Shown here piece by piece: positions 645 through 17,274 of a stretch of 26,898 nt of DNA (within the stretch, counting starts at the first letter, position 1; the number at the start of each line of letters is the position of its first letter). The stretch comes from a virus: IMG/VR virus record IMGVR_UViG_3300050132_000209, positions 1 to 26,898 of that record, one strand, 5' to 3'. The position numbers were made by a program, and so were the translations under genes. Under the pieces are notes generated by a model. The model was not told the DNA's origin. It searched no databases and saw only the letters and a list, made by a program, of their open reading frames with translations.

Positions 645-2066
645 TTAATATGGAAGTTCAGATTGCAGGGCGAACTCCCACACCTGGCTCATGCCTGGGT
701 AGTTCGTCGTATTTGGTGCCGGGGAAATCGGCAAATACAGATTGGCGTTGGTCCACACGGGAGGTGCACCGGCGATTACGCCGGGCGTGACGAATCCCTG
801 GATATATCCACCCTGGTTGTTGCCCGCGTAGAAGTTACCGGCGAACCAGTTTGCAAAGCCGTCGTCCCCATACGGCAGGACCTGACAGCCGCCGCTTGAT
901 AACGCGTACTGGAAACCGCGTGCCCAGGAACTGTTCCGTTTATCGACGACGAAAGATTCGATGCCGGTGCCATAGTAGTAATACGGACAGAAGCAGATCA
1001 CCAGCTGACCATTGCGCGACTGCATGGTTTTCATGCCGTAGTCATTGCCTTGCTCCAGCCCATAGCTGGTCGTGGTGCTGAGCGAATCAACCAATGTAAA
1101 GGTGTTGGTGGTGTCGCCGCTAGTCCGCACCATCTTGAAAAGGCGAATGGCGGCGGCCGGAAAGAATGCCACCAGATAGATATCACCGGTATCGACCAAT
1201 ACCGGCGTCACCCGATACTGCGACTCCGTCGTGCTCGAACCCCAGCCACCGACGGTATTCATGTTCACGGTTTGAGCAACGTCCGGCACGCCAAGCGCGG
1301 TCACGTCCACCGCATCAAAGTTCATGTTCTTCCAGATCTTGACATCGTATTGTCCGGCGACGCTCGTGTTGTAGGCGACTGTCACGAACTCTTTACGCAC
1401 GTTGTTGTAGGATGCGGAACCGAACTGGCTGGTAATCTGCGATCCGGCGCCGAACTGCGAAACGATGGATTTCGTGCGTGTCTTGCTCTTTTGCAGCGCG
1501 AGCAGGGTCGGAGGCGTTGGCCGCCAGCGGCTGGTCAGCGACACCTGACCGCCGTTGAGCGTCAACACGACGCTACGATCCTTGTGGTCGCTATTGATAA
1601 ACGAAAAATTCGTTTGCGCCATGATGGTATTCGTGCCGGCGCGCTGGACCGTATTTCCCTGCAGGCCACGCTCGGACACCCAGGTATTGTCATTGCCGAA
1701 CTCGCCACTGTTATTGGTGGCGTTGACCCAGGCGCTGGTGGTGCTGTTGGAGCTGGGCTGCGTCTGGGTTGGTGCGCCGCTGTAGGCGCCGGACGTCTGG
1801 CTGTGATCCTTGTAGGTCGCGAGGAAGCGGTCAAAGGCTGCAGACGCGCCACCGCCAATCGCCTGGCTGGCACTGACCGGCCCGGTGTTATACGGCGCGA
1901 TGGCACGGAACTCGGCATCAAGGAACGCGGTTTCATTGATCGTGCTGGACGAGTTGGCGGAAATGATCGCATACGACGCGCGCGGCAAAGACGCCGCCGA
2001 CATCTGGTGCGAAGGACTAATTACATTGTTTACAGCTACCGGCATTGCGGTGATAGTGCGCCCCAT
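645..2066 (-). CDS. Putative tail-tip or receptor-binding protein, unknown family, 473 aa
   Basis: I do not recognise a family. The start MGRTITAMP is chosen because a strong Shine-Dalgarno (GGAGGAATAAGC then ATG) lies upstream, overlapping the end of the preceding gene; the longer open frame upstream is Arg-rich and lacks this signal. Composition is Ser/Thr/Asn/Gly-rich with many aromatics and few charges in the C-terminal half (WFAGNFYAGNN, PYYYYGTG), typical of secreted beta-rich adhesins or phage tips. A basic patch (LQKSKTRTKS) lies near the middle. There is no signal peptide or membrane helix. Position after the modular fibre and its 103-aa companion suggests a terminal structural protein contacting the host. 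Function is inferred from position and composition only. Confidence 0.75.
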   Translation of the reverse strand: MGRTITAMPVAVNNVISPSHQMSAASLPRASYAIISANSSSTINETAFLDAEFRAIAPYNTGPVSASQAIGGGASAAFDRFLATYKDHSQTSGAYSGAPTQTQPSSNSTTSAWVNATNNSGEFGNDNTWVSERGLQGNTVQRAGTNTIMAQTNFSFINSDHKDRSVVLTLNGGQVSLTSRWRPTPPTLLALQKSKTRTKSIVSQFGAGSQITSQFGSASYNNVRKEFVTVAYNTSVAGQYDVKIWKNMNFDAVDVTALGVPDVAQTVNMNTVGGWGSSTTESQYRVTPVLVDTGDIYLVAFFPAAAIRLFKMVRTSGDTTNTFTLVDSLSTTTSYGLEQGNDYGMKTMQSRNGQLVICFCPYYYYGTGIESFVVDKRNSSWARGFQYALSSGGCQVLPYGDDGFANWFAGNFYAGNNQGGYIQGFVTPGVIAGAPPVWTNANLYLPISPAPNTTNYPGMSQVWEFALQSELPY

Positions 2067-2068
2067 GC

Positions 2069-2380
2069 TTATTCCTCCAGTCCAAGTGCGATAAAGTTGG
2101 TATTGGCCGTGTCCGACTGCACAGTGATCGCCTCGCTTGCTGTCAGCTGGATGCCGGTGCGCTCGAACACGCCGTTGCCGGGGATCGGCGTGTCGTATTC
2201 GATAAAACTGACCGGCAACGTGGCGTTTTCTCCGACGCTGCGCAGCGCCACGCGGATCTTGACCGGCACGGCGTTCCTGTTGCACACCTCAAGTGCCGCG
2301 AGGCCGTTTTTTCCCGCGGTAACTGTGTAAAGTACGGCTTCGGTTGCTGCCGCCGGAGACTGTTTTCCTAAAATTGCCAT
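2069..2380 (-). CDS. Small tail protein, 103 aa, similar to the 4167-4493 product
   Basis: A short beta-rich protein (MAILGKQSP start; LYTVTAGKNGLAALEVCNRN; GIQLTASEAITVQSD; ending FIALGLEE). The layout of N-terminal Thr/Ala segment, a VLYTVTAGK-like strand, an xVCNR strand, then a predicted exposed loop and a sequence reading 'LxxSEAITVQS', parallels the 108-aa protein at 4167-4493 (TLYQAPVNTKS, LLTNRT, LLPGDKVMAQSA). They look like divergent paralogues. AAGGA lies upstream of the start. It sits between the modular fibre and the unknown 473-aa protein and is probably a fibre-connecting or capping structural protein. Function is inferred. Confidence 0.75.
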   Translation of the reverse strand: MAILGKQSPAAATEAVLYTVTAGKNGLAALEVCNRNAVPVKIRVALRSVGENATLPVSFIEYDTPIPGNGVFERTGIQLTASEAITVQSDTANTNFIALGLEE

Positions 2381-2393
2381 GTTCGTGTTCCTT

Positions 2394-3899
2394 TTAGAAT
2401 TGCGATGCGTAAAAAGCGGTTTTCATCCTGGAGACACCCTGCACCCAGACCGGATTGATGCCGTCAGTGCCGAGCACCTGCCCAGCCTTGTTGATCATGC
2501 TGGGTAGCACGCTTTGACCCAGCGCCAGCACCTGCACTTTGGCCGCGGCCATATCCGCTGAAATTGAGGCGCCGGAAGTGTGATCAATCGCCGCGATATA
2601 GGTGGATACGCCATCGGTAAAAATGTCATTGGCTAGGTAGGCGACCGCTGTAGCCCAGATACCGCGCCAGCGAATGCCGCTGGTAAACAGTTGCCAGTTC
2701 GCCGCCATGTCGGTCGCAAACACTGTCGACGCGTGATAGTGCGTGCAGATGAAGCTCTGGCCACCATAGGTAACTACCTCGCCCGGATAGTAGGCAGTGG
2801 CCGTTGCCCAGGCGCCGCGATTACCGAGACCGGACATCTGCAATGCAAACTTCACCGGATTGGTTGGAAGATCGCCCACGACGGTGTTGACGATAGAGCG
2901 GTACAGCGCCGGGCCATAGGTAACCAGGCTACCGACCGGATAGGCGACAGCCGCGCTCCAGACACCTTGCGGCGCGCTGCCGCTGACGTAGAGCGACCAG
3001 TTGCTGGTGTCGGTAGGCAGATTGCCGGTCGTATCGCGCACGGCGATGTAGGTGTTGCCGCCGTAGTTGACGATATCGTTCTGGTGATAGGCAGTCGCCG
3101 CCGCATACACTCCCTGAAACTGGCTGCCGTACACGATAGCGGTCCAGTAGATGACATTGGTCGGCAGATTGCCGAGCGTGTCACTGATGGCGCGATACAG
3201 GTTCGCGCCGTAGCTCACGATGTCGTTTGCGTGGTACTGCGTGCCGGCAGCGTACACACCCTGGAACGCCAGGCCGGAGAGCAGCGGCGCCCAGTAAGCG
3301 GTATTGGTCGGCGTATTGCCGGTCGTGTTGGCAATCGCGCGGTACAGGTTGGCGCCATACGCCACGACATCGCCGGGGAAATATGCGTTGGCCGAGTTGT
3401 AGATGCCCTGCGGGTCGATGCCGGTGATGAAGGATGCCCAGTACGCGGCAACGGTCGGCAGGTTGTTGGTCGAATCCTGCAGCGCGATGTAGACGCAGCC
3501 GCCATAGGTCACGATGTCGTTTTTCTTGTACGACGCCGTAACGGAAAACACACCCATGTACTCGATGCCGTCCGCGAACTGCGACCAGTACGCCGGGGCC
3601 GGCGGAATCTGCCCGGCGTTGTCGGCAATCGCCACATACACCTTGCCGCCGTAGGAAACTGCCTCACCGATGTGATACTGCTGTGTGGCGTTGAAGGCGC
3701 CGGTAAAGTTAAAACCCTTGACCATCAGCGCCCAGTGGGTGGTGTCGGTCGGCAGGATGCCCGCCTGCGCCAGCGCGAAGGTGTAGCAATAGACGTTGCC
3801 GCCATATTTCACGACATCGTTGGCTTCGTACACCGTGGTCGACAGCCAGTCTCCCGCGAAGTTGAAGCGCAGTTTGCCGAGATCGATGATTTGCGTCAT
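2394..3899 (-). CDS. Modular tail fibre with nine carbohydrate-binding-like repeats, 501 aa
   Basis: Almost the whole protein (residues 11-461) is nine tandem modules of 49-53 residues, each reading roughly: aromatic-x-G-x-[WFY]-x6-Y-x2-[GN]-D/E-x-V-x-YG-x2-[YL]-Y-x-A-x12-P-x6-W-x4-xG. Module boundaries are about 11-62, 63-111, 112-160, 161-209, 210-258, 259-307, 308-357, 358-408 and 409-461. The pattern (Y..GD.V.YGG..Y.A) is that of CBM5/12 or ChtBD3-like chitin and polysaccharide-binding modules, often found repeated in phage fibres. The last 40 residues (GQVLGTDGINPVWV) match the tail-fibre C-terminal pattern 'G..L.TDG....W'. GAGGAAC precedes the start. Likely role: multivalent binding of a surface glycan; the ligand is unknown. 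Modules 7-9 are the most diverged. Confidence 0.85.
   Translation of the reverse strand: MTQIIDLGKLRFNFAGDWLSTTVYEANDVVKYGGNVYCYTFALAQAGILPTDTTHWALMVKGFNFTGAFNATQQYHIGEAVSYGGKVYVAIADNAGQIPPAPAYWSQFADGIEYMGVFSVTASYKKNDIVTYGGCVYIALQDSTNNLPTVAAYWASFITGIDPQGIYNSANAYFPGDVVAYGANLYRAIANTTGNTPTNTAYWAPLLSGLAFQGVYAAGTQYHANDIVSYGANLYRAISDTLGNLPTNVIYWTAIVYGSQFQGVYAAATAYHQNDIVNYGGNTYIAVRDTTGNLPTDTSNWSLYVSGSAPQGVWSAAVAYPVGSLVTYGPALYRSIVNTVVGDLPTNPVKFALQMSGLGNRGAWATATAYYPGEVVTYGGQSFICTHYHASTVFATDMAANWQLFTSGIRWRGIWATAVAYLANDIFTDGVSTYIAAIDHTSGASISADMAAAKVQVLALGQSVLPSMINKAGQVLGTDGINPVWVQGVSRMKTAFYASQF
2517..3869 (-). repeat. Nine tandem ~147-bp coding repeats
   Basis: DNA encoding the nine ~49-residue modules of the modular fibre. 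Five consecutive copies (modules 2-6) are exactly 49 codons; modules 1, 7, 8 and 9 are 50-53. Recurring plus-strand blocks such as 'ccgtagntgacgatgtcgtt' mark the YG/DIV motif in each copy. Confidence 0.85.
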
Positions 3900-3912: not shown

Positions 3913-4167
3913 TCAGTAAATGGTTAAAAGAAGGTGGCCGTTGGAACCGAAAGAAAAATTGAGCGTGTCCGTCGTCCACACGAACTGCCGGTAGTCGTCG
4001 GCGCGGATCACCGACGGATCCGGCATCGACACCACCGAGACGCCGTCGTTGATCACCTCGACGTTCAGGTGCCCGGTCTGCGGATCTAGACGGAAACCGT
4101 AGAAAGTCTTGTCGCCGAGGTCGGTGCCGGCAGTGTCGCCGCTTCCGACCGCATAGAATTCCGCCAT
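3913..4167 (-). CDS. Small hypothetical tail protein, 84 aa
   Basis: Unrecognised. It starts MAEFYAVGSGD and ends GHLLLTIY. It is acidic (several Asp), with alternating hydrophobics consistent with a small beta structure. The start codon overlaps the stop of the preceding gene by one base (TGATG), so it is translationally coupled to the 108-aa protein at 4167-4493. It lies directly before the modular fibre gene, whose start is 13 bases beyond its stop. Probably a structural adaptor or attachment protein in the fibre cluster, by position only. Confidence 0.7.
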   Translation of the reverse strand: MAEFYAVGSGDTAGTDLGDKTFYGFRLDPQTGHLNVEVINDGVSVVSMPDPSVIRADDYRQFVWTTDTLNFSFGSNGHLLLTIY

Positions 4168-4493
4168 CAGGACACTCCCTCGAGAACAGACACACTGGCG
4201 TCAAAGGCACCGGCGACGGCCGATTGCGCCATCACCTTGTCGCCGGGCAGTAGCACGCATTTCCTGCCCTGCGCCGGGTCGGCGGACTGGCCGCCCGCTA
4301 CCTTGCCGTTACGAAGTAGATAAGCATCGCCGGCAACGGAGCGGAGGATCACGGTCAGCGGCAAGGCTGCAGGCGTCCTGTTGGTCAGCAGGCAAGCGAC
4401 CAGGACGGACTTGGTATTGACCGGCGCCTGATACAGGGTGGTCAGCGTCGCGCCGACGCCAGTCGTCGCCTTGCTGTTAAAAGTGGTTGTCAT
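4167..4493 (-). CDS. Small tail protein, 108 aa, similar to the 2069-2380 product
   Basis: A beta-rich protein with no recognisable named domain. Segments LTTLYQAPVNTKSVLVACLLTN and LLPGDKVMAQSAVA parallel LYTVTAGKNGLAALEVCNRN and LTASEAITVQSDTA in the 103-aa protein encoded at 2069-2380, suggesting a shared fold. The C-terminus ends SVSVLEGVS. GGAG lies about eight bases before the ATG. It is coupled to the following 84-aa gene by TGATG. The two paralogues flank the modular fibre gene, one two genes before and one directly after, which suggests they cap or seat fibres. Confidence 0.75.
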   Translation of the reverse strand: MTTTFNSKATTGVGATLTTLYQAPVNTKSVLVACLLTNRTPAALPLTVILRSVAGDAYLLRNGKVAGGQSADPAQGRKCVLLPGDKVMAQSAVAGAFDASVSVLEGVS

Positions 4494-4508: not shown

Positions 4509-6182
4509 TCACGCTCCAAAGACAAGGGCAAAGGCGACCGGATCCACGTACCCGGCCAGCTGGCTGACGGCGGGCTGGTTGGACAGGTCGGTGTAACTGC
4601 CGGAAGTGGCGACTGTGGCCAGGCCAGAAACGTCGCTGGCGCCGAGTGCTACCGCACCCTGCCTGCCGGCGACGGAAATGACCAGATTGCCGGCTGTCGC
4701 CTGCTGCGCTGCCTGCGCGGCGATGGCTGCCGAGGCGGCGGCATCGCTGGCCTTGCCGGTGGCGGTTGCAGCAGCAGATACAGCAGCATCCCTGCTCGTG
4801 CCGGCGGTCGCTTCCGAAGCTGCGGCATTGGTGGCGGACGTATTCGCGCTGCTGGCAGCGGCGGTGGCGATACCGGCTTCGCTGGTTGCTGTGGCCGCAC
4901 TGGCTGCTGCCGCAGTAGCCTGCGCCGTCGCAATACCCGCTTGTGCCGATGTGGTCGCAGCGCTACCTGCGGCGGCGCTGGCCTGGGTGGTGGCGATCCC
5001 GGCCTGCGCAGATGCAGTGCCGGCAGCGGCAGTAGCGGTCGCAGCCTGGGTGGTCGCGATGCCTGCCTGTGTCGTTGCCACGGTGGCGCTACCTGATGCG
5101 GCGGCGGCCTCGGCGGAGGCAATCCCGGCCTGGGTCGTCACAGTACCGGCGGCAGTTGTCGCCGTAGCTGCCTGCGTAGTCGCGATCCCCGCCTGCGTGG
5201 TGGCGGTCGTTGCCGCGCTGCTCGCGGTCGTCGCCGACGCGGCCGCACTGGCTGCACTGAGCACGGCGTTTTGAGTGGCGGTCTGCGCCGTGCTGTCATA
5301 GTCGCCCCATGCGCTGCCGCTATAGATGCGCAGCTTGCCGGAAACGGTATTGAAATACTCCACGCCTGCCGTCAGCGCGTTGCCGTTGCCGTCCACCGTG
5401 GGATCGGTCGCAAAATGGCCGAGAAACACGGACCTGAAGGAACTGAGTGCGGCGGCCAGCGATGCAGCCGATCCGGCAGCCACAGTGGCGCTGCCCTGCG
5501 CCGCCGTAGCCGAGCCGGCTGCTGCCGTTGCCTGAGCTGTCGCGATACCGGCCTGCGTGGTCGCCGTGCCTGCCTGCGTCGTAGCGATACCGGCCTGAGC
5601 CGTGGCCGTAGTAGCGGCAGCGCTGGCCGTCGTCGCCGAGGCCGCAGCGGCGGTCTGGCTGCCCTGTGCGTTGGCGGCAGCGGTCAGATTGGCCGGATTG
5701 ACGTCGCCGACATCACCTTTCTGGCCCTGAATCGAGCTGGATTTCCACATCATCCCGACCCAGACGTACAGACTGCTGCCGATCAGGTAGGCGTCGCCGG
5801 TTGCGCCGGAAGTGGGCAGCTGGCTCGGATCGATCAGCACGCCTTGCAACTGCAGGCCGGCACCGACCAGATTGCCGGCCAGGTAGGCATCCCTGAAACC
5901 GCCGAAGGTATTTAATAGTGAGGACGCCTGCGCGGCCAGGTCGACGATATACGACTGCGTCGGTGCAATCGCATACGGCGCATTAGCGATGGTTAAACCG
6001 ACATAGCTGGCGACCAGTGTCAGCGCAGTCGCACTTGCGATGCTGCCGACCTCGTAGATATGGCCGTCCGGCGCGCAGAAAATTCCGCCCGGCGAGACAT
6101 TCGTCACGAAGTCGGTGCCGACGCCTGCGACGGCATTGCTGCCATTGGTCAGCGAGACCGATCCTGTTTTGTACCAGGCCAT
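4509..6182 (-). CDS. Tail fibre with Ala/Thr repeat stalks, 557 aa
   Basis: The N-terminal ~100 residues (MAWYKTGSVSLTNGS, DGHIYEVGSI, YAIAPTQSYIVDLA) match the attachment domain of many siphovirus and podovirus fibres. Residues 110-160 hold a GDAYLIGSSLYVWVG strand pair and a short collagen-like GQKGDVGDV. Two low-complexity stalks follow, residues 166-244 and 300-497, almost only Ala, Thr, Ser, Gly, Gln and Ile. Between them (247-295) lies the familiar fibre motif FLGHFATDPT-DGNGNAL-GVEYFNT-SGKLRIYSGSAW. The C-terminus has VAGRQGAVALGASDV, typical of fibre tips. In the second stalk AGIA recurs at residues 331, 352, 373, 394, 415 and 436, a perfect 21-residue period. Expected to be trimeric. 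There is no chaperone-like C-terminal domain. High confidence as a fibre. Confidence 0.9.
   Translation of the reverse strand: MAWYKTGSVSLTNGSNAVAGVGTDFVTNVSPGGIFCAPDGHIYEVGSIASATALTLVASYVGLTIANAPYAIAPTQSYIVDLAAQASSLLNTFGGFRDAYLAGNLVGAGLQLQGVLIDPSQLPTSGATGDAYLIGSSLYVWVGMMWKSSSIQGQKGDVGDVNPANLTAAANAQGSQTAAAASATTASAAATTATAQAGIATTQAGTATTQAGIATAQATAAAGSATAAQGSATVAAGSAASLAAALSSFRSVFLGHFATDPTVDGNGNALTAGVEYFNTVSGKLRIYSGSAWGDYDSTAQTATQNAVLSAASAAASATTASSAATTATTQAGIATTQAATATTAAGTVTTQAGIASAEAAAASGSATVATTQAGIATTQAATATAAAGTASAQAGIATTQASAAAGSAATTSAQAGIATAQATAAAASAATATSEAGIATAAASSANTSATNAAASEATAGTSRDAAVSAAATATGKASDAAASAAIAAQAAQQATAGNLVISVAGRQGAVALGASDVSGLATVATSGSYTDLSNQPAVSQLAGYVDPVAFALVFGA
4800..5192 (-). 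repeat. 63-bp tandem coding repeat in fibre stalk
   Basis: Six AGIA-containing units spaced exactly 21 codons apart (residues 331-456 of the 557-aa fibre), each made of three heptads rich in Ala/Thr/Gln. The first stalk (about 5451-5687) has related heptads at a 14-residue spacing. Confidence 0.8.
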
Positions 6183-6759: not shown

Positions 6760-7100
6760 TTTGTAACGGTAAAAATGGCGTCTAGATAAGGGAAAGCGGT
6801 CACGGTGACCGCATAGGTTCCAGCCAGCGTCAGGTTCAGCGTCGCGGTGCTGTCGGTACAGGGGTATTCGGATGCATTGATACGGATCACACAAGGTACC
6901 GGCAGGTTGGACAACGTGGTACCGCTGAGCGTGGCCGGGTTCGCTGGCCTTGTCATCACCGTGCCATTGACGATGTATTGACTGTCCGAGTCTGCCGTGC
7001 CGACATAGATATTGCCGTCCTGTAGTGCCAGCATGCTGGTAGGCATGCTGCCGGTCGCCAGTATCCGGCCGGCGCCATCATATTTTGCAAAATCCGTCAT
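6756..7100 (-). CDS. Hypothetical tail protein downstream of gpJ, 114 aa
   Basis: The start MTDFAKYDGAGRILATGSMP is chosen because its ATGA overlaps the gpJ stop; the longer frame upstream is a shadow of gpJ. The N-terminal half (GRILATGSMP, GNIYVGTADSDSQYIVNG) resembles a small fibre-proximal domain; the C-terminal half (LNLTLAGTYAVTVTAFPYLDAIFTVTK) reads like an Ig-like beta-strand pair. No catalytic motif is visible. Linked at both ends by ATGA overlaps (gpJ before, 55-aa protein after), so it is part of the gpJ translational unit and is probably a virion component at the tail tip. Confidence 0.75.
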   Translation of the reverse strand: MTDFAKYDGAGRILATGSMPTSMLALQDGNIYVGTADSDSQYIVNGTVMTRPANPATLSGTTLSNLPVPCVIRINASEYPCTDSTATLNLTLAGTYAVTVTAFPYLDAIFTVTK

Positions 7101-10100
7101 CGCATCGCTCCCAGCACGGTCAACGACCAGTTCCCAAGATTCCAGGTTCCTCCGCCCGGCCAGTCGTTGCCGAACCACATCGTGAACGTGTGGGCACCTG
7201 CGGCCAGGTTGACAACTGCGGACGCCACATGGGAGGTCGTGATGCCGGACGGGGCGGTGTCTGAAGCGGCTAGTACGGTATTGCCATCCGCCCGTATTTC
7301 CACTCTCGTGTTCCCGCCACTGCCTGGGGCTCCTGATTGCCACGTCACCAGAATAATTACCGGTGTCGTTACCGCGTAATTAACGTTCAACGCCGCGGCA
7401 AAGACCTGCGACATCACATAACTTCCGCTGCCGCTAAATGGCCCGGCACCGCCGCTGCCGCTGATCGATGCCGGGACTGTGACCGCATTGCCGCCGATAC
7501 TGAGCGTGCCGACTGCTGCTGCGGCGATCTTCGCGTTCGTGATCCACGCTGTGCCTATCAGTGCCTGGCTGATAAAGGTTTGTCCACCCTGGATCACGAA
7601 GGGCGTGGTCAGGGTGCCGCTGCTCTCGTCGATCATCGCGACGCGATTCGCGGATAGCAGAATCTGCGATTCGACGATACCGGTGCTGTTCGAGACGCCG
7701 ACGCCGATCGAGGCCAGATAGGTACTACCTCCGACGGCGATCTGGGTCTTGATAGTGGACATTGCCGACAACTGACCATTGGTCGCGGCGATCGCGCTGG
7801 TGGCAGTTTGAGCGGACGCACTGGCGTTATTCGCTGTTGCCGCGACAGTCGTGATGCTGGACGACAATGCGCTATCGGCACTGGCGCGCGAGCTTGCTTC
7901 CGACTGGATGGCTGCGATATTGCCGTTGGCCGTTGCGACCACGCTGTCGATGCGGGTCGACAGAGCACCATCCGCACCGGCCCGCGCATTCTGCTCAGTC
8001 ACGATGGCAGCAGTATTGCCGCTGGCAGTCGCCACCACGCTGTCGATACGGGTCGAGAGCGCACCATCGGCGCCGACCCGTGCATTTTGTTCCGTGACGA
8101 TGGCAGCAGTGTTTCCATTGGCGGTCGCGGCTACACTGTCTATTCGTGTCGACAGTGCGCCGTCGGCACCGGCGCGTGCAATCTGTTCGCTGGTAATGGC
8201 CGCCGTATTGCTGTCGGCAGTCGCCGCCACGGTTGTCACCAGCGTCGAGATCGCACTGTCGGCATTGGCGCGCGCGGTCTGTTCGCTCAGGATCAGCGCA
8301 GTATTGCCGTTGGCGGTGGCTGACACGCTGCTGATCTGGCTAGCCAGCGCGTCGGTTGCGGTGATGCGCTGGGTCGTTTCTGTCGTCACCTGAGCGGCGA
8401 CACCGCCGATGGTGCTGGTCAGGGTATCCCGCGCGGTTTTGAGCGCGTTGTCTGCGGCGATCAAACCGGTCAACTGGGTCGCGGCAAGCTGATCCTGCTG
8501 ACCGACGCCGTTTAACAGTACGTCGATCTGTTGCAGCACCGGACCGATGATTGCCTCGGCATCCTCGATTGGTTGCAGGACGTCCTGCCCGAGTTCCGTC
8601 TTGCCGATCTGGCCGGCCAGGTAGCTGAGGATTTCGGTTGAGTCGGTACTGGTGGTGGCCGACGCCGGGCCAGACCAGGCGCTTGCATTGCCAGTGGTAT
8701 CCACCACGCGCGCCCAGTAATAGAGCGTGACGCCGGCAGCCAGGCCCAGTTGCGTCCACTGTGCGGTCGGGTAGGCGATTTCGGCCAGTTTTACGGCATC
8801 GGTCTGGTCGCTCGATGCACCGCCCCAGATCTCGATCAGCTTGGTATCGACCGCTGGCGGGTAAATCCAGGCCAGCTGGATCTGGAGTATTCCACCGATA
8901 GCAGACAGCGCACTGAGTGGTTGCGGCGCACTGGTCTTGGCACCGACCACGTAGGTGAGACTTGCAGGCGTCGATTCGAGGCCGATGGTGGAAACGGCCA
9001 CCACGGAAAAATAATAAGTGGTCAGGTCGACGTTGTCGATATCGATCGAACTCTGGTGCGCGTCGCGCGTATCCGTCTGCCCGCTGGCGGTATGCCAGGA
9101 AACTCTGAAGGTGCCGGCGCCCGACGTCCACGACAGGGTCAGGCGCAAGCCGACTACCTGGCCCGCGACAATATAGGGCGATGTCATGGCGGACAGATCG
9201 CCGGGACTATCCGGCACGGTCTTGATGTTACTGACTTGCGGCAGGTCGAACTGGGCACCGCTGTCGACCAGATCGAACAAGCCGTCGTAGTGCGCGATGG
9301 CGACGATGTCGACCACATTGTTGCCGCTTTCCTGCACGCCCATCACGCGCCAGGTCTCGGCAGCCAGATCATTGGCCGCAATCACGAAAATCGCATTGGT
9401 TTGCGGTGCCGCCGCCAGCGATGGCGTGATGTTAACTGTGCGGGTCGTTCCGGGCGCATTGATGATGGCACTCACATTGGTGCTACCGTCGCTGCCGATC
9501 ACGTTAATCGAGTAGGACTTGCCGTCTTCAATGACGAAGTCGGCATCCAGTGTCAGCGACGCGGCAGTGGATGGCGCCAGTCGGCCGCCCATGCGCTTGC
9601 CCGACCGGTTCAGGTCGGTGGTCTTGATGATTGCGCCCGGGTATAGCGTGCAGCTATCCAGTCCCGCCTTGAACGACAGGGATTCGGTTGCATATTTTTC
9701 AGTGGCCAGCAGCCACTGGCCCAGTCGGTGCGCCTGTCCCTTGGATGCACAGCCAAATGCGGTCAATTGCGTCTGTACTACGCCCAGTTGCCTGATGCCG
9801 TCGTCATCCTGTACATACTCGACCTTTTGCCGATAGAAGTCGGTCGGGTCGTTCCATGCCACGAGGGCGACGGTGTGGCGCTGCTTGATTGAGGTGCCGG
9901 AGTAATTGAAGACCCCGTCAATCACATTCGCATTGGTATATAGCGCGCTGGCGTCTGCCGGGCGATCCTGCATGGCGACGATGGTGCCGGCACTCCAGAA
10001 CGTGATCGCCCTGAAAATCGACGCAAAATTCTGCGCCAACGTATACGCTTCGGCGGATGTCTGCAGATACAGGTTGCAGGTAAAGCGCGGCTCGAACCCG

Positions 10101-11143
10101 CCATAACCGTCCGGCACGATTTCATCGCAGTAACGCGCGATCGCATACAGCGACCATTTGTCGATACTGGACGGATCGATGAAATCACCCAGACCGTAGC
10201 GGCTATTGGTCAGCAGATCATAAAAACACCAGGCCGGGTTATCCGACCATGCCAGCTTGAAGCTGCCATCCCAGATATCGGCGTAGGTGCGCGCCACAGG
10301 GTCATAATTGGCTGGCACGCGGATGATCAGCCCCTTAATGCCATACGCGCGACTCGGAATCGACGTGAACTGCGAGGCATCAATCTGCGTGCCGACCAGC
10401 GCCGAGTTCGGGTACGCCAGGCGCGAACTGACGATGCCGGTGTAACTGTCGAAGAAGGTTTTGTTGTTGACGGCGGAAGTCGTGGCATCGCCGCTTACCC
10501 GCGTCACGCGCACATCCCATGGCCCCGTCCCATCTAGCCTGATCAGGTAAGCGCGCTGGTAGCGGCTGCTGGTCTTGCCGGAAATGGTATCGCTGACTTT
10601 GTTGACGTAGCCGCCGCCATCGGTCTGTACTTCAACCGTGATGTCGACGGAACTGCCGGTGATGTTGCCGTTGGTGGTGTCCTGCGTGGTCAGGGATGGA
10701 ACCGATACGGTGACGCGCAGGTTGTCGAGATTCGGATCCGTCAGCGTGCGAACGATAGGCACGCCGCTCTTGACCTCCACGCCGACCGCAGTTTCGTATT
10801 CGACGTCGGATACATTGTCCAGCGGCAGCTGGTCTTGCGTGCCATTGCGCCATTGCGCTGCGACGTTGACAAAATTAAAGGTGCCATCGGTATTTTGCAA
10901 TGGGCCGCCAGATACCTGAGCCGACCCATCCGGATTCTGCAGCGGCACCTCGTTCAGGTAGATCGACTGCAAGCCATTGACCAGCCCGACGATCGGCCCT
11001 TCGCACAGTACATCGATCACCGTGGCGATCTGCGTGGAACGCAGGCTGTCGGAAACCTCCGTCGCACCGGAACCGCCACCGCCTTTGCTGCCACCCGCGC
11101 CGCGGATGGTCAGGGGCTTCATGGCGAAACTGACGTCATTCAT
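7097..11143 (-). CDS. Tail tip / central fibre protein J-like host specificity protein, 1348 aa
   Basis: Equivalent of lambda gpJ, the trimeric tail-tip protein that contacts the receptor. The start MNDVSFAMKPLTIRGAGG overlaps the gpI stop (ATGA); the N-terminal GAGGSKGGGG and SLRSTQIATVIDVLCEGPI motifs are typical of J. The first ~620 residues form the conserved tip body. Two fibronectin-III-like domains follow (about 650-735 and 742-835; LSWTSGAGTFRVSW, AWIYPP). A helical linker rich in TETTQRITATDALAS leads to five 32-residue repeats (about 920-1080). A DUF1983-like C-terminal region follows (ANRVAMIDE, FVIQGGQTFISQALIG), then a Gly/Ser linker and a terminal beta domain of about 100 residues (FTMWFGNDWPGGGTW) that probably varies with host. 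Longer than lambda J (1132 aa). Confidence 0.95.
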   Translation of the reverse strand: MNDVSFAMKPLTIRGAGGSKGGGGSGATEVSDSLRSTQIATVIDVLCEGPIVGLVNGLQSIYLNEVPLQNPDGSAQVSGGPLQNTDGTFNFVNVAAQWRNGTQDQLPLDNVSDVEYETAVGVEVKSGVPIVRTLTDPNLDNLRVTVSVPSLTTQDTTNGNITGSSVDITVEVQTDGGGYVNKVSDTISGKTSSRYQRAYLIRLDGTGPWDVRVTRVSGDATTSAVNNKTFFDSYTGIVSSRLAYPNSALVGTQIDASQFTSIPSRAYGIKGLIIRVPANYDPVARTYADIWDGSFKLAWSDNPAWCFYDLLTNSRYGLGDFIDPSSIDKWSLYAIARYCDEIVPDGYGGFEPRFTCNLYLQTSAEAYTLAQNFASIFRAITFWSAGTIVAMQDRPADASALYTNANVIDGVFNYSGTSIKQRHTVALVAWNDPTDFYRQKVEYVQDDDGIRQLGVVQTQLTAFGCASKGQAHRLGQWLLATEKYATESLSFKAGLDSCTLYPGAIIKTTDLNRSGKRMGGRLAPSTAASLTLDADFVIEDGKSYSINVIGSDGSTNVSAIINAPGTTRTVNITPSLAAAPQTNAIFVIAANDLAAETWRVMGVQESGNNVVDIVAIAHYDGLFDLVDSGAQFDLPQVSNIKTVPDSPGDLSAMTSPYIVAGQVVGLRLTLSWTSGAGTFRVSWHTASGQTDTRDAHQSSIDIDNVDLTTYYFSVVAVSTIGLESTPASLTYVVGAKTSAPQPLSALSAIGGILQIQLAWIYPPAVDTKLIEIWGGASSDQTDAVKLAEIAYPTAQWTQLGLAAGVTLYYWARVVDTTGNASAWSGPASATTSTDSTEILSYLAGQIGKTELGQDVLQPIEDAEAIIGPVLQQIDVLLNGVGQQDQLAATQLTGLIAADNALKTARDTLTSTIGGVAAQVTTETTQRITATDALASQISSVSATANGNTALILSEQTARANADSAISTLVTTVAATADSNTAAITSEQIARAGADGALSTRIDSVAATANGNTAAIVTEQNARVGADGALSTRIDSVVATASGNTAAIVTEQNARAGADGALSTRIDSVVATANGNIAAIQSEASSRASADSALSSSITTVAATANNASASAQTATSAIAATNGQLSAMSTIKTQIAVGGSTYLASIGVGVSNSTGIVESQILLSANRVAMIDESSGTLTTPFVIQGGQTFISQALIGTAWITNAKIAAAAVGTLSIGGNAVTVPASISGSGGAGPFSGSGSYVMSQVFAAALNVNYAVTTPVIILVTWQSGAPGSGGNTRVEIRADGNTVLAASDTAPSGITTSHVASAVVNLAAGAHTFTMWFGNDWPGGGTWNLGNWSLTVLGAMR
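7907..8386 (-). repeat. Five 96-bp tandem coding repeats in gpJ
   Basis: The block encoding N-[TI]-A-[AL]-I recurs at 7907, 8003, 8099, 8195 and 8291, exactly 96 bases apart. Each unit encodes 32 residues of the form NTAAI-x-[ST]EQ-x-AR-x-[GN]AD-x-A[LI]ST-x(3)-[ST]V-x-ATA-x-[GNS], likely a trimeric coiled coil. The central three copies are the most alike. Confidence 0.9.
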
Positions 11144-11682
11144 ACCGCAACCTGCTCCACCGACAAGCCAGCGGACACGACCTGCGAGCCGATGATCATC
11201 GTGCCATAGCAGATCGGCACCGGATTGCCTTGTGCTGTTGTGTTGACCGGGCCATTGAAGCAATACGATGCCTGGTTATTGGCCGGCGTGGCCGGGCCGG
11301 GCGGGCGTATCAGCATCTGCGAGATGCCGCCGACCATCATCGAAACGCCGATATTCACCAACCACGACTGGTCGAAATATGCGCCGACCACGACCAGCAC
11401 CGCGCCCAGTATCGTCTGGAACACACCGTGTCCGGATCCTGCCACGACCGGCACGATCCTGATGGCAGCATCGCTACCCGGTACCGAAAGGTCGTTTTTG
11501 CCGACATTGCGTTTGCCGACGAACACATGATAGCCAGGTGCCGAATGCTGGAACATGTACGCTTCGAACCCTTCCAGATTGGCGCGCAGCGCGCGAATGG
11601 CTTCTGCCGGAGACTTGACGTCAAAGCGGAACACCCGCCCGAATCGTTTTCCAAGATGACCATACAGTCTTACTTCACGCAC
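11140..11682 (-). CDS. Tail assembly protein I-like, 180 aa
   Basis: Lambda gpI family, needed to assemble the tail tip but not part of the finished virion in lambda. The N-terminal ~80 residues (MREVRLYGHLGKRFGRVF, a helix around residues 26-35, VPVVAG) form the ubiquitin-like fold expected. Two hydrophobic segments follow (about 87-103 and 107-124; FQTILGAVLVVVGAYF, GVSMMVGGISQMLIRPP), then an Asn/Gly/Pro-rich tail with the family sequence YCFNGPVNTTAQGNPVPICYG. It overlaps gpK by eight bases and gpJ by four, the usual K-I-J arrangement. Confidence 0.93.
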   Translation of the reverse strand: MREVRLYGHLGKRFGRVFRFDVKSPAEAIRALRANLEGFEAYMFQHSAPGYHVFVGKRNVGKNDLSVPGSDAAIRIVPVVAGSGHGVFQTILGAVLVVVGAYFDQSWLVNIGVSMMVGGISQMLIRPPGPATPANNQASYCFNGPVNTTAQGNPVPICYGTMIIGSQVVSAGLSVEQVAV

Positions 11683-12415
11683 GGATCAGGCTCCTGTGTC
11701 GCACGACCTTGACGGTGCTGCGCTGCCAGTAGCCGCCGTAGATATCGCGGCTCGACAGGCGGTTCATGCAGTGCTGCAGAATGAATCCGTCGCCGATGTA
11801 CACGGCGGCGTGGTTCGGCACCGCCGAGCCGATCTGCATTAACAGCACATCATGTTTTTGCATCGTGTCTTCTGCGGCTACCGGGACGAAACCAGCCTGC
11901 TCGAAATTATCCAGATAGAGATTGCTACCGTTTTCATTGCGTTCTTTCAGCCACCATTCTTCGTCGCGCTCGAAATCAGGAATGTCGAGCGACAGTTCGC
12001 ACCGGTAGTAATCCCGGATCAGCGAGTAGCAATCCAGAATCCCGTGCGAAAAGCTGCGCCCGACCAGCGGCGCCTGATATCCGGTCGGTGCGAAGGCATG
12101 GATCGCACCCGTAGGCCAGTTGACGATGATCCATGGCAGGCCGGAGCGCTCGCAGCCGACCAGGTCGGCCTCGGACGGCAGCGGCGACATGCCGGGATGG
12201 CTGTGGACGATGTGCGTGATCTCGCCGGTTTCCTCCGCTGCGACATAGTCTTCCGGCCTGATCGCGAAATGGCTGTTGCCGGAAGCGATGTTGGCGCAGG
12301 GGACATAGCGCTGCCTGCCGCGGGCAATGATCACCACGCCGCAGCATTCGCGCGGATAGGCGCGTTCGGCGTCGGCGCGGATCGCTGCGAGAACAGAATC
12401 GGTGACCGGACTCAT
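11675..12415 (-). CDS. Tail assembly protein K-like: JAMM plus NlpC/P60 peptidase, 246 aa
   Basis: Lambda gpK family. The N-terminal domain (about 1-110) is a JAMM/Mov34 metallopeptidase: Glu23 in PRECCG, then H71-S-H73-P, Ser81 and Asp84 (HSHPGMSPLPSEAD), the zinc-binding set. The C-terminal domain (about 120-246) is NlpC/P60: Cys129 in GILDCYSLIRDYY and His202 in PNHAAVYIGDG, with a further His at 215. In phages it is thought to act in tail assembly and possibly in cell-wall penetration during infection. The start is chosen at the ATGA overlap with gpL; the longer frame upstream is a shadow of gpL. All key residues of both domains are present. Confidence 0.93.
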   Translation of the reverse strand: MSPVTDSVLAAIRADAERAYPRECCGVVIIARGRQRYVPCANIASGNSHFAIRPEDYVAAEETGEITHIVHSHPGMSPLPSEADLVGCERSGLPWIIVNWPTGAIHAFAPTGYQAPLVGRSFSHGILDCYSLIRDYYRCELSLDIPDFERDEEWWLKERNENGSNLYLDNFEQAGFVPVAAEDTMQKHDVLLMQIGSAVPNHAAVYIGDGFILQHCMNRLSSRDIYGGYWQRSTVKVVRHRSLIRA

Positions 12416-13116
12416 TGCACCAGCCCGCAGCCGGGGAAGCCGCCATAAGGCAGGACACCAGTACCGAAGCGTAGCTTGCAGTCGGTGAGCTTCTTGCCGC
12501 ACAGATCCTGGGTAAGGTCGGTGGTAGCCGTGCCGTCCTCTTTGGCCACCGCGCCGCCGGTGTAACCACACTCCGGCGAACGGTAAACCCAGGCGCAGCA
12601 ATTCTGGATCATCTGCCGGCGTGGCAGCGTTACGCCCTGCATGTCCAGGGCCGAGGCCAACTCGAATTCAAGGACGGAGGGGTTTTCGTTCGACTTGCGG
12701 TCGATGATCCAGATATCGTCTGGCAGAGCCTGATTGGGATCAGCCTGCGGGTTGCCGGCCGTGAAGTTCACGGCGTCCAGGAAGCGCGCAAAGGTGCGTT
12801 TGCGGATGAATTTGCATCCCAAAAAATAGCCGAACTGGCGCGCCTCGGCACCCATCAGTCCCTGCGTATTGGATACTTTCACCAGCGGACGCGGCAGCGC
12901 GCCCGTGCTGCGCTTATCAAAACCAGTGGCTTCAATCGGAAAGCGGGCATAGGTCTGTCCTTGCCACACGACGTCGCCAGCCAGTTCGTTGGTGCCGGCA
13001 TGAAAATAAAACATGCCGCCACCCTGTTTGCTCAAGTCCAGCACGAACAGTTCGATCATTGCCGAAGGTGCCAGGCTTTGTATTTCTGCCTGGATGGTTT
13101 CAGATGGGAGTGTCAT
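12412..13116 (-). CDS. Minor tail protein L-like, 234 aa
   Basis: Lambda gpL family, joining the tail-tip to the tube. The N-terminus has LAPSAMIELFVLDLS and a FHAGTNELAGDVVWQGQTYARFPI stretch typical of L. The C-terminal domain has Cys173, Cys174, Cys183, Cys206, Cys213 and Cys230; four of them (173/183/206/213) fall at almost the positions of the [4Fe-4S] ligands of lambda gpL, so an iron-sulphur cluster is likely. No Shine-Dalgarno is visible: the ATG is only five bases beyond the U-run of a terminator-like hairpin. The family N-terminus nevertheless supports this start. Coupled to gpK by an ATGA overlap. Confidence 0.93.
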   Translation of the reverse strand: MTLPSETIQAEIQSLAPSAMIELFVLDLSKQGGGMFYFHAGTNELAGDVVWQGQTYARFPIEATGFDKRSTGALPRPLVKVSNTQGLMGAEARQFGYFLGCKFIRKRTFARFLDAVNFTAGNPQADPNQALPDDIWIIDRKSNENPSVLEFELASALDMQGVTLPRRQMIQNCCAWVYRSPECGYTGGAVAKEDGTATTDLTQDLCGKKLTDCKLRFGTGVLPYGGFPGCGLVQ

Positions 13117-16287: not shown

Positions 16288-16366
16288 CGCGTGAAACTGG
16301 TTGAATGGGCTATAATGTTTGCTGCTTACCGATAAACGATATATAATCTGTATATGATTCAATCAT
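16288..16366 (+). promoter_or_regulatory. Putative higBA promoter and operator
   Basis: AT-rich intergenic stretch with two perfect TATAAT boxes, at 16311-16316 and 16342-16347. The second has TTGCTG (16319-16324, three of six -35 matches) at a 17-base spacing. Two dyads overlap it: ATATA-N5-TATAT (16341-16355) and ATGATT-C-AATCAT (16354-16366), the latter covering the higB start codon. These are plausible HigA operators by analogy with other autoregulated higBA loci. Inferred, not proven. Confidence 0.5.
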
Positions 16367-16632
16367 TCGCCTGCGCCGATACGCAAAGGCTTTACGAAGG
16401 CAAGAAAGTTGCTCGTTTCGCCAACATTGCCTCAGTTGCAGAACGGAAATTGCAGCAGCTTGACAGCGCTGCGACGCTGGATTTTCTGCGATCGCCGCCG
16501 GGTAACAGGCTGGAGCAATTGAGCGGCGACCGGGCCGGGCAGCACAGTATTCGTATTAACGCGCAATGGCGACTTTGCTTTGTCTGGGCCGAGAAGGGGC
16601 CGGAGCAAGCCGAAATTGTCGATTACCACTAG
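16354..16632 (+). CDS. higB: HigB-type mRNA interferase toxin, 92 aa
   Basis: RelE-superfamily HigB toxin, which cleaves mRNA on the ribosome. Length and motif order are canonical: MIQSFACADTQRLYEG, a helix ending VAERKLQQLD, the signature PPGNRLEQLSGDRAGQHSIRIN, QWRLCFVW, and the terminal EIVDYH. All conserved basic and aromatic residues of the family signature are present, so it should be active. Encoded before its antitoxin, as usual for HigBA. No Shine-Dalgarno is visible, and a TATAAT box ends six bases before the ATG, so the transcript could be leaderless. Lies in antisense orientation to the surrounding late operon. Confidence 0.95.
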   Translation: MIQSFACADTQRLYEGKKVARFANIASVAERKLQQLDSAATLDFLRSPPGNRLEQLSGDRAGQHSIRINAQWRLCFVWAEKGPEQAEIVDYH

Positions 16633-16641
16633 GAGCACAAC

Positions 16642-16953
16642 ATGACCAAATTCAAAAACGGCATGCGTCCGATTCACCCGGGCGAAATCCTGCGCGAGGA
16701 CTATCTGAAGCCGCTCGACATGAGCGCGCATGCGCTGTCCAAGGCGCTGCATGTACCGCCGGCCCGTGTCAACGATATCGTTTTGGAGCGGCGTGGCATC
16801 TCGCCGGATACTGCCCTGCGGCTGGCCAGGTATTTCGGCGGCGATGCGCAGTCATGGCTCAATCTTCAACAGGCTTACGATCTGAAGATGGCCGAGAAAG
16901 AGGTGCTGCCGAAAATTTTCAAGGAAATTCAACCGATGGCGCATGCTGCTTAG
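16642..16953 (+). CDS. higA: HigA-type antitoxin, XRE-family HTH, 103 aa
   Basis: Antitoxin and likely autorepressor of the higBA pair. The N-terminus MRPIHPGEILREDYLKPLDMSA and the helix-turn-helix (HALSKALHVPPARVNDIVLERRGISPDTALRLARYFG, about residues 30-67) are diagnostic of HigA/VapI-type XRE antitoxins. QSWLNLQQAYDLKMAE follows, as in the family. AGGAG lies seven bases upstream of the ATG, a clearly better ribosome site than that of higB, which would favour antitoxin excess. Nine bases separate it from higB. Confidence 0.95.
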   Translation: MTKFKNGMRPIHPGEILREDYLKPLDMSAHALSKALHVPPARVNDIVLERRGISPDTALRLARYFGGDAQSWLNLQQAYDLKMAEKEVLPKIFKEIQPMAHAA

Positions 16954-16980
16954 CGCCATCGGGCATTGGATCCATACGAA

Positions 16981-17274
16981 ATGAACGCGCTAATCTGCCA
17001 AGCCATCAAGGAAACATTGCTCCTGGACTTCAGTTACGAGGGACACCATCGGCTCGTTGAGCCACATGCTTATGGTGTGAACGACAAGGGACATGCCATA
17101 TTGCGTTGCTATCAGGTTGGTGGTTCAAGCGAATCCCATAAATCACCGTACTGGAGAATATTTTTGGAAAGCGAAATGCGTAGCTTGCACATCGTGCCGC
17201 AGAAATTTTCGGGTGCGCGACCGGGATACAAGCGCAACGACAAAGCCATGACACGGATTTACTGCCAGCTTTAA
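16981..17274 (+). CDS. WYL-domain-like hypothetical protein, 97 aa
   Basis: Third gene of the plus-strand cassette, 27 bases after higA. It matches a widespread stand-alone small family with a WYL-like core: ICQAIKETLLLDFSYEGHHR, VEPHAYGVNDKGHAILRCYQVGG, then PYWRIFLESEMRSL and a C-terminal FSGARPGYKRNDKAMTRIYC. WYL domains usually bind nucleic acid or nucleotide ligands and regulate defence or stress genes; this short form has no HTH. An upstream in-frame TTG at 16966 is possible, but ATG at 16981 begins where family members usually do. No clear Shine-Dalgarno. Function unknown; it may be cargo or an auxiliary regulator of the TA module. Confidence 0.75.
   Translation: MNALICQAIKETLLLDFSYEGHHRLVEPHAYGVNDKGHAILRCYQVGGSSESHKSPYWRIFLESEMRSLHIVPQKFSGARPGYKRNDKAMTRIYCQL

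Follow-up and report, generated by a model that had tools for sequence, protein, structure and literature searches.

The 501-aa protein encoded at 2394..3899 (minus strand) of the window, a 26,898-nucleotide virus record (IMGVR_UViG_3300050132_000209) analyzed at its full length, carries nine tandem modules of CBM5/12-like fold. We favor the reading that this array is a linker-free beaded shaft or adaptor (stem) of a side tail fibre, probably trimeric, and a shaft or joint is more likely than a nine-fold grip on sugar. In such a stem, nine CBM5/12-fold beads stacked head to tail without linkers would give a rigid or semi-rigid shaft or adaptor, with three chains probably coming together. The conserved N-terminal bead would dock on the virion, while the last two specialized beads and the short C-terminus would connect to whatever lies distally. 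The chitin-gripping loop of chitinase A1 would have been remodeled to a conserved G-N-L-P-T turn that may be used for protein-protein contact, and the number of modules would set the length of the shaft, which would thus serve as a spacer.

The distinction bears on annotation: databases label such array proteins as carbohydrate-binding, and arrays of this kind occur in hundreds of environmental phage fibres. Our results suggest that in phages the CBM5/12 fold is mostly a fibre building block from which the sugar-gripping residue is gone. Care is therefore needed before host sugar specificity is inferred from CBM5/12 matches in phage fibres, and distal parts and partner proteins appear the better candidates for host recognition. 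Array-bearing tail fibres are already known, and the 501-aa protein adds a member that is without a long distal fibre. Our literature search for CBM5/12 arrays in phage fibres found no paper in the collection covered; an Oenococcus phage "CBM_5" was dismissed because that label numbers a domain and does not refer to family CBM5.

Module architecture and predicted fold

The gene runs from an ATG at 3899 to 2394 on the minus strand; the initial annotation had given this ORF with no strand, and the ORF is real. The modules, each of about 49 residues, occupy residues 16-462. Compared with itself at a 49-residue lag, the protein is 27.0% identical, versus 12.7% for the best lag (40-59) over 2,000 shuffles. 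A search against the CBM families, as the initial annotation had suggested, matched Pfam CBM_5_12 to the whole protein with E=2.8e-29 over eight stretches (101.3 bits, cut-off 26.2). Single modules all score under the curated cut-off (best 24.2 vs 26.2 bits), and a family-specific HMM recovers 9/9, in agreement with the nine modules of the initial annotation.

All modules are encoded on the minus strand. Module 1 (residues 16-65, 3705..3854) follows a conserved N-terminal motif, MTQIIDLGKLRFNFAG, and its region is the best-conserved part of the array, with 61/65 of residues 1-65 identical to the relative L002. Modules 2 (residues 66-114, 3558..3704), 3 (115-163, 3411..3557), 4 (164-212, 3264..3410), 5 (213-261, 3117..3263), and 6 (262-310, 2970..3116) are 49 residues each. 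Module 7 (311-360, 2820..2969) has 50 residues, and modules 8 (361-411, 2667..2819) and 9 (412-462, 2514..2666) have about 51, so that the earlier description of copies 2-6 as exactly 49 codons, with the last three differing, is borne out. Module 8 is of a penultimate type with an H-x-S...F-x-x-D loop, and module 9 is a degenerate last module. Only 39 residues remain after it, a C-terminal segment (463-501, 2397..2513) that begins LPSMINKAGQVLGTDG and runs into a low-confidence tail. The modules adjoin one another without flexible linkers. Pairwise identity among the copies is 21-61%, and the duplications are therefore old; recent tandem duplication was rejected on these values and on a nucleotide identity of 42% at lag 147.

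An AlphaFold2 monomer model of the array protein, built with 40 sequences, has a pLDDT of 86.8 and an identical short-strand pattern in every module. Values exceed 90 from about residue 160 to 360, module junctions included, with a pTM of only 0.53, so that the model leaves the overall course of the rod free. Foldseek with this model returns CBM-bearing Vibrio chitin deacetylases (probability 1.00), the phage fibres 9rkv, 8fqc, and 8kec, and phage proteins annotated "CBM family 5/12". The top match, a tectonin, was set aside (TM 0.07-0.11), as were megalin and propeller matches. The Pfam match, the model, and Foldseek thus agree on the CBM5/12-like fold originally proposed. Pfam, PHROGs, and NCBIfam yield no catalytic domain, as the initial annotation had also held, and Pfam and PHROGs recognize no receptor-binding domain other than the CBM5/12-like modules. 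The PHROG profiles that match are those of tail fibres, phrog_9851 (E = 7.9e-68) and phrog_5073 (E = 1.8e-48).

The ligand loop and the same fold in solved phage fibres

We aligned 665 modules (565 unique) to ChiA1, in which we take W687 to be the Trp that grips chitin. The W687 column is aromatic in 0/562 unique phage modules and in none of the nine modules of the 501-aa protein, whereas Trp is kept there in the CBM of an intradiol dioxygenase (4ilv) and in Vibrio deacetylase domains, a small control set. This difference argues for the shaft. The alignment of the column is somewhat ambiguous; the phage loop is shorter, and because its alignment could slip, the whole loop was scanned as well. 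An aromatic residue occurs anywhere in the loop in only 23 of 406 non-terminal modules, one of them a Trp. Cellular CBM5/12 domains belong to the same fold family and have the same core aromatics, but their loop is longer and, unlike that of the phage modules, retains the ligand Trp. By this alignment, the T-T-G-N-x-P loop of the modules appears to correspond to the ChiA1 loop in which the chitin-binding Trp sits, and its G-N-x-P portion is conserved, not variable, among phage modules.

The core columns 3, 9, 22, and 39 are 99-100% aromatic in the module alignment. Both an aromatic binding surface and hydrophobic-core aromatics have been described for CBM5/12 (PMC8449059), and the Tyr/Trp richness of the phage modules appears to be that of the described hydrophobic core. 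Judged by sequence, the array comes close to the outcome that the initial annotation had named as refuting its reading, a lack of exposed binding aromatics. It is CBM5/12-like in fold yet appears to lack the residue expected of a ligand binder, and for that reason we would not class it among functional CBMs; the inference that it binds sugar is weakened accordingly in our reading of the alignment.

The matched region has known roles in three phages of solved structure. Profile searches match residues 30-118 of gp124, the tailspike of Agrobacterium phage Milano; residues 28-119 of gp015, the long tail fibre of phage 7-7-1; and residues 139-183 of gp33, the short tail fibre of Anabaena phage A-1(L). 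In Milano gp124, this region is part of a trimeric tail-binding module (PMC10811340); in 7-7-1 gp015, it is the N-terminal baseplate anchor (PMC12796354); and in A-1(L) gp33, it is a joint bound to the baseplate wedges (PMC10966104). That these phage relatives use the same module as a protein-protein part counts for the shaft, and the array most likely functions as these docking and joint modules do. The Milano and 7-7-1 N-terminal modules (PDB 8fqc, 9rkv) resemble the array in being tandem small domains that match both its profile and its model, but they have only two such domains, followed by a beta-helix and a jelly roll. The joint domain of the A-1(L) short tail fibre (PDB 8ke9, 8kec) matches in module sequence, including the N-x-L-P-T loop, but it is a single module followed by a stem and a tip domain. 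The Milano protein contacts the baseplate through two proline-rich motifs, 55-VPPGTP-60 and 100-RTDLPPGPFDPANWQ-115 (PMC10811340). Profile positions 4-43 align with Milano residues 30-69 at equal length, which places 55-VPPGTP-60 on the T-T-G-N-x-P loop of the array. The ChiA1 ChBD fold is also that of head subdomain D2 of CBA120 TSP1, whose authors state that polysaccharide binding by tailspike head domains has never been reported (PMC3966878).

The initial annotation read the array as a multivalent, low-affinity binder of a glycan, and of that reading the fold stands, and the glycan binding is weakly supported. In this alternative, which we consider possible but unlikely, the beads would bind capsule, exopolysaccharide, or LPS weakly, perhaps via a site other than that of the chitinase, and nine of them would give avidity. 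The match of the whole protein to CBM_5_12 fits it, as do solved cellular relatives of the module that include chitin deacetylases and a chitinase, and the protein offers no other recognized receptor-binding domain. The main point in its favor is divergence. Of the tail-tip genes compared between the window and L002, the array has diverged most, with 52% local protein identity versus 74-93% for its neighbors, which counts against the shaft insofar as it fits a host-facing role too; the divergence may reflect module turnover or host pressure. Against the glycan grip stand the missing ligand Trp in all modules, the rarity of loop aromatics in non-terminal modules, the conservation of the loop, the absence of flexible linkers, and the protein contacts made by the domain in the solved phage relatives. 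In A-1(L), moreover, a carbohydrate-binding module of a different type, at the neck-fibre tip, did not bind the host (PMC10966104).

The last two modules are set apart systematically, by H at column 28 and F at column 32. Their loop holds an aromatic, mostly Phe, in 120/142 cases, which also counts against the shaft. A division of labor, with seven proximal beads as spacer and the last two H-x-S...F-type beads as an adhesive tip, would account for this difference and for F394 of module 8, which is invariant across 40 aligned sequences. We nevertheless regard it as improbable: in the model, F394 opens a short helix and may be a core residue, and since a long fibre follows the last two modules in most relatives, those modules are internal there.

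Array length and the missing distal fibre

At least 562 relatives were confirmed by a profile scan of IMG/VR. The best 80 of these carry 5-14 modules per array, a set biased toward nine because it is ranked by similarity to the query. In a second sample, of loci picked solely by a degenerate DNA pattern for NDxVKYGG, the count is 4-10, most often 8. Hundreds of IMG/VR contigs, and marine phages too, have tail fibres that open with an array of 4-14 modules, usually 7-9. Counts in the pattern sample, in the best relatives, and in isolated cyanophages and a pelagiphage make nine an ordinary number. The module count in relatives, which the initial annotation had proposed as a check, therefore goes against its statement that most CBM-containing fibres carry far fewer copies, at least for this array family. 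The largest array seen has 14 modules, in an 822-aa protein (L071, 8213-10678), and is followed in the same contig by a second array protein, of five modules (10720-13026).

Array length changes by whole modules, with module 1 and the last two keeping their type, a mode of variation that counts for the shaft. Modules of the window and of the eight-module L002 pair by position, 1-6 approximately with 1-6, 8 with 7, and 9 with 8; a counterpart of module 7 was looked for in L002 and none was found. The family is essentially viral, since an alignment-based search of 84,980 species genomes gave only eight loci, all in MAG contigs that are possibly misbinned phage. A whole-genome search with the 501-aa protein alone as query gave no match.

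Most relatives have the array at the N-terminus of a much longer protein, with hundreds to about 2,000 aa more of fibre behind it, which likewise counts for the shaft. Such are the phrog_9851 and phrog_5073 fibres of cyanophages, pelagiphages, and uncultured Caudoviricetes, among them Synechococcus phage S-CAM1 and Pelagibacter phage Mosig. The 501-aa protein shares with this family the conserved opening motif, the N-terminal tandem array of CBM5/12-like modules, and a setting in fibre gene clusters, but the family members run on into a long distal fibre. The "fibre-type C-terminus" of the initial annotation is therefore present as a short segment, though it is not where the fibre ends in most relatives. 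Lack of the usual long distal fibre is the only unusual feature of the 501-aa protein. The pattern sample includes 30 uncut proteins, of which only that of the L001 contig is array-only; among the nearest loci, 16 contigs have under 140 residues beyond the last module.

Because the protein stops where most relatives run on, we considered a decaying relic, in which a once-long fibre gene was truncated behind the array and lost its function. This is very improbable. L001 and L002 keep this same end, and other array-only proteins exist. Of the codons that differ from a 96%-identical relative, 114 changed synonymously and 20 non-synonymously, giving a dN/dS of 0.047. The gene is conserved and coding, under strong purifying selection, and the relic reading is largely refuted on that ground.

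Tail-fibre cluster and neighboring genes

The record encodes terminase, portal, S49 protease, capsid, tail, NlpC/P60, J, and fibre genes. The phage is a lambda-type siphophage, and its array gene comes behind J, within the tail-fibre cluster. Its tail-fibre PHROGs and this position bear out the original call of a fibre protein. The terminase is nearest to those of Marinobacter and Burkholderia phages (≤57% identical), from which the host is probably a Gram-negative proteobacterium. The gene order is J, a 147-aa ORF, a 557-aa fibre protein, two small genes, the array, and genes for 103-, 473-, and 157-aa products, and L002 has the same order around the array. The J homologue, a central tail-tip protein by Pfam and PHROGs, is at 7097..11245 (minus strand, as are the genes that follow), and the syntenic Ala-rich 557-aa protein, with a tail-fibre N-terminus, is at 4509..6182.

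Directly upstream of the array is an 84-aa protein (3913..4167), preceded by a 108-aa protein of phrog_26609 / phrog_1276, of unknown function (4167..4493). The 108-aa family is upstream of the array in 82/84 nearest loci. The 84-aa family is so in 80/84, but in only 23/61 pattern-sampled loci, so that the partnership is common, not universal, or the profile is too narrow. The 84-aa protein has no Pfam, PHROG, NCBIfam, or PDB match, and its model (pLDDT 77) gave no significant fold match; its dN/dS versus L001 is 0.04, which is strong purifying selection. The family is common to quite different phage contigs (for example, L003 7696-7998).

Downstream are a 103-aa tail-fibre-domain protein of phrog_11338 (2069..2380) and a 473-aa protein (645..2066) that may be a distal partner. 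The latter occurs in only two other contigs and has no credible Pfam, PHROG, NCBIfam, or PDB match. It is 93% identical in L002, though the nearby array gene is only 52% identical. No distal receptor-binding domain follows the array here, so that a protein acting purely as stem would depend on a partner in trans, which counts against the shaft. More speculatively, and with rather low confidence, the window may belong to a small lineage with a split fibre, in which the array is a stand-alone shaft, the 473-aa or 103-aa product supplies the tip, and the 84-aa and 108-aa proteins are dedicated array partners across many phage groups.

Elsewhere in the window, 16354-16953 on the plus strand holds a gene for a HigB-like toxin (PF05015, E=9.9e-15) with an HTH antitoxin-like gene (PF01381) next to it, and a 102-aa ORF with no Pfam match (16966-17274, plus strand) comes after the antitoxin-like gene. 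The toxin/antitoxin-like pair sits inside the tail gene cluster, on the opposite strand, and adjoins the tape-measure gene.
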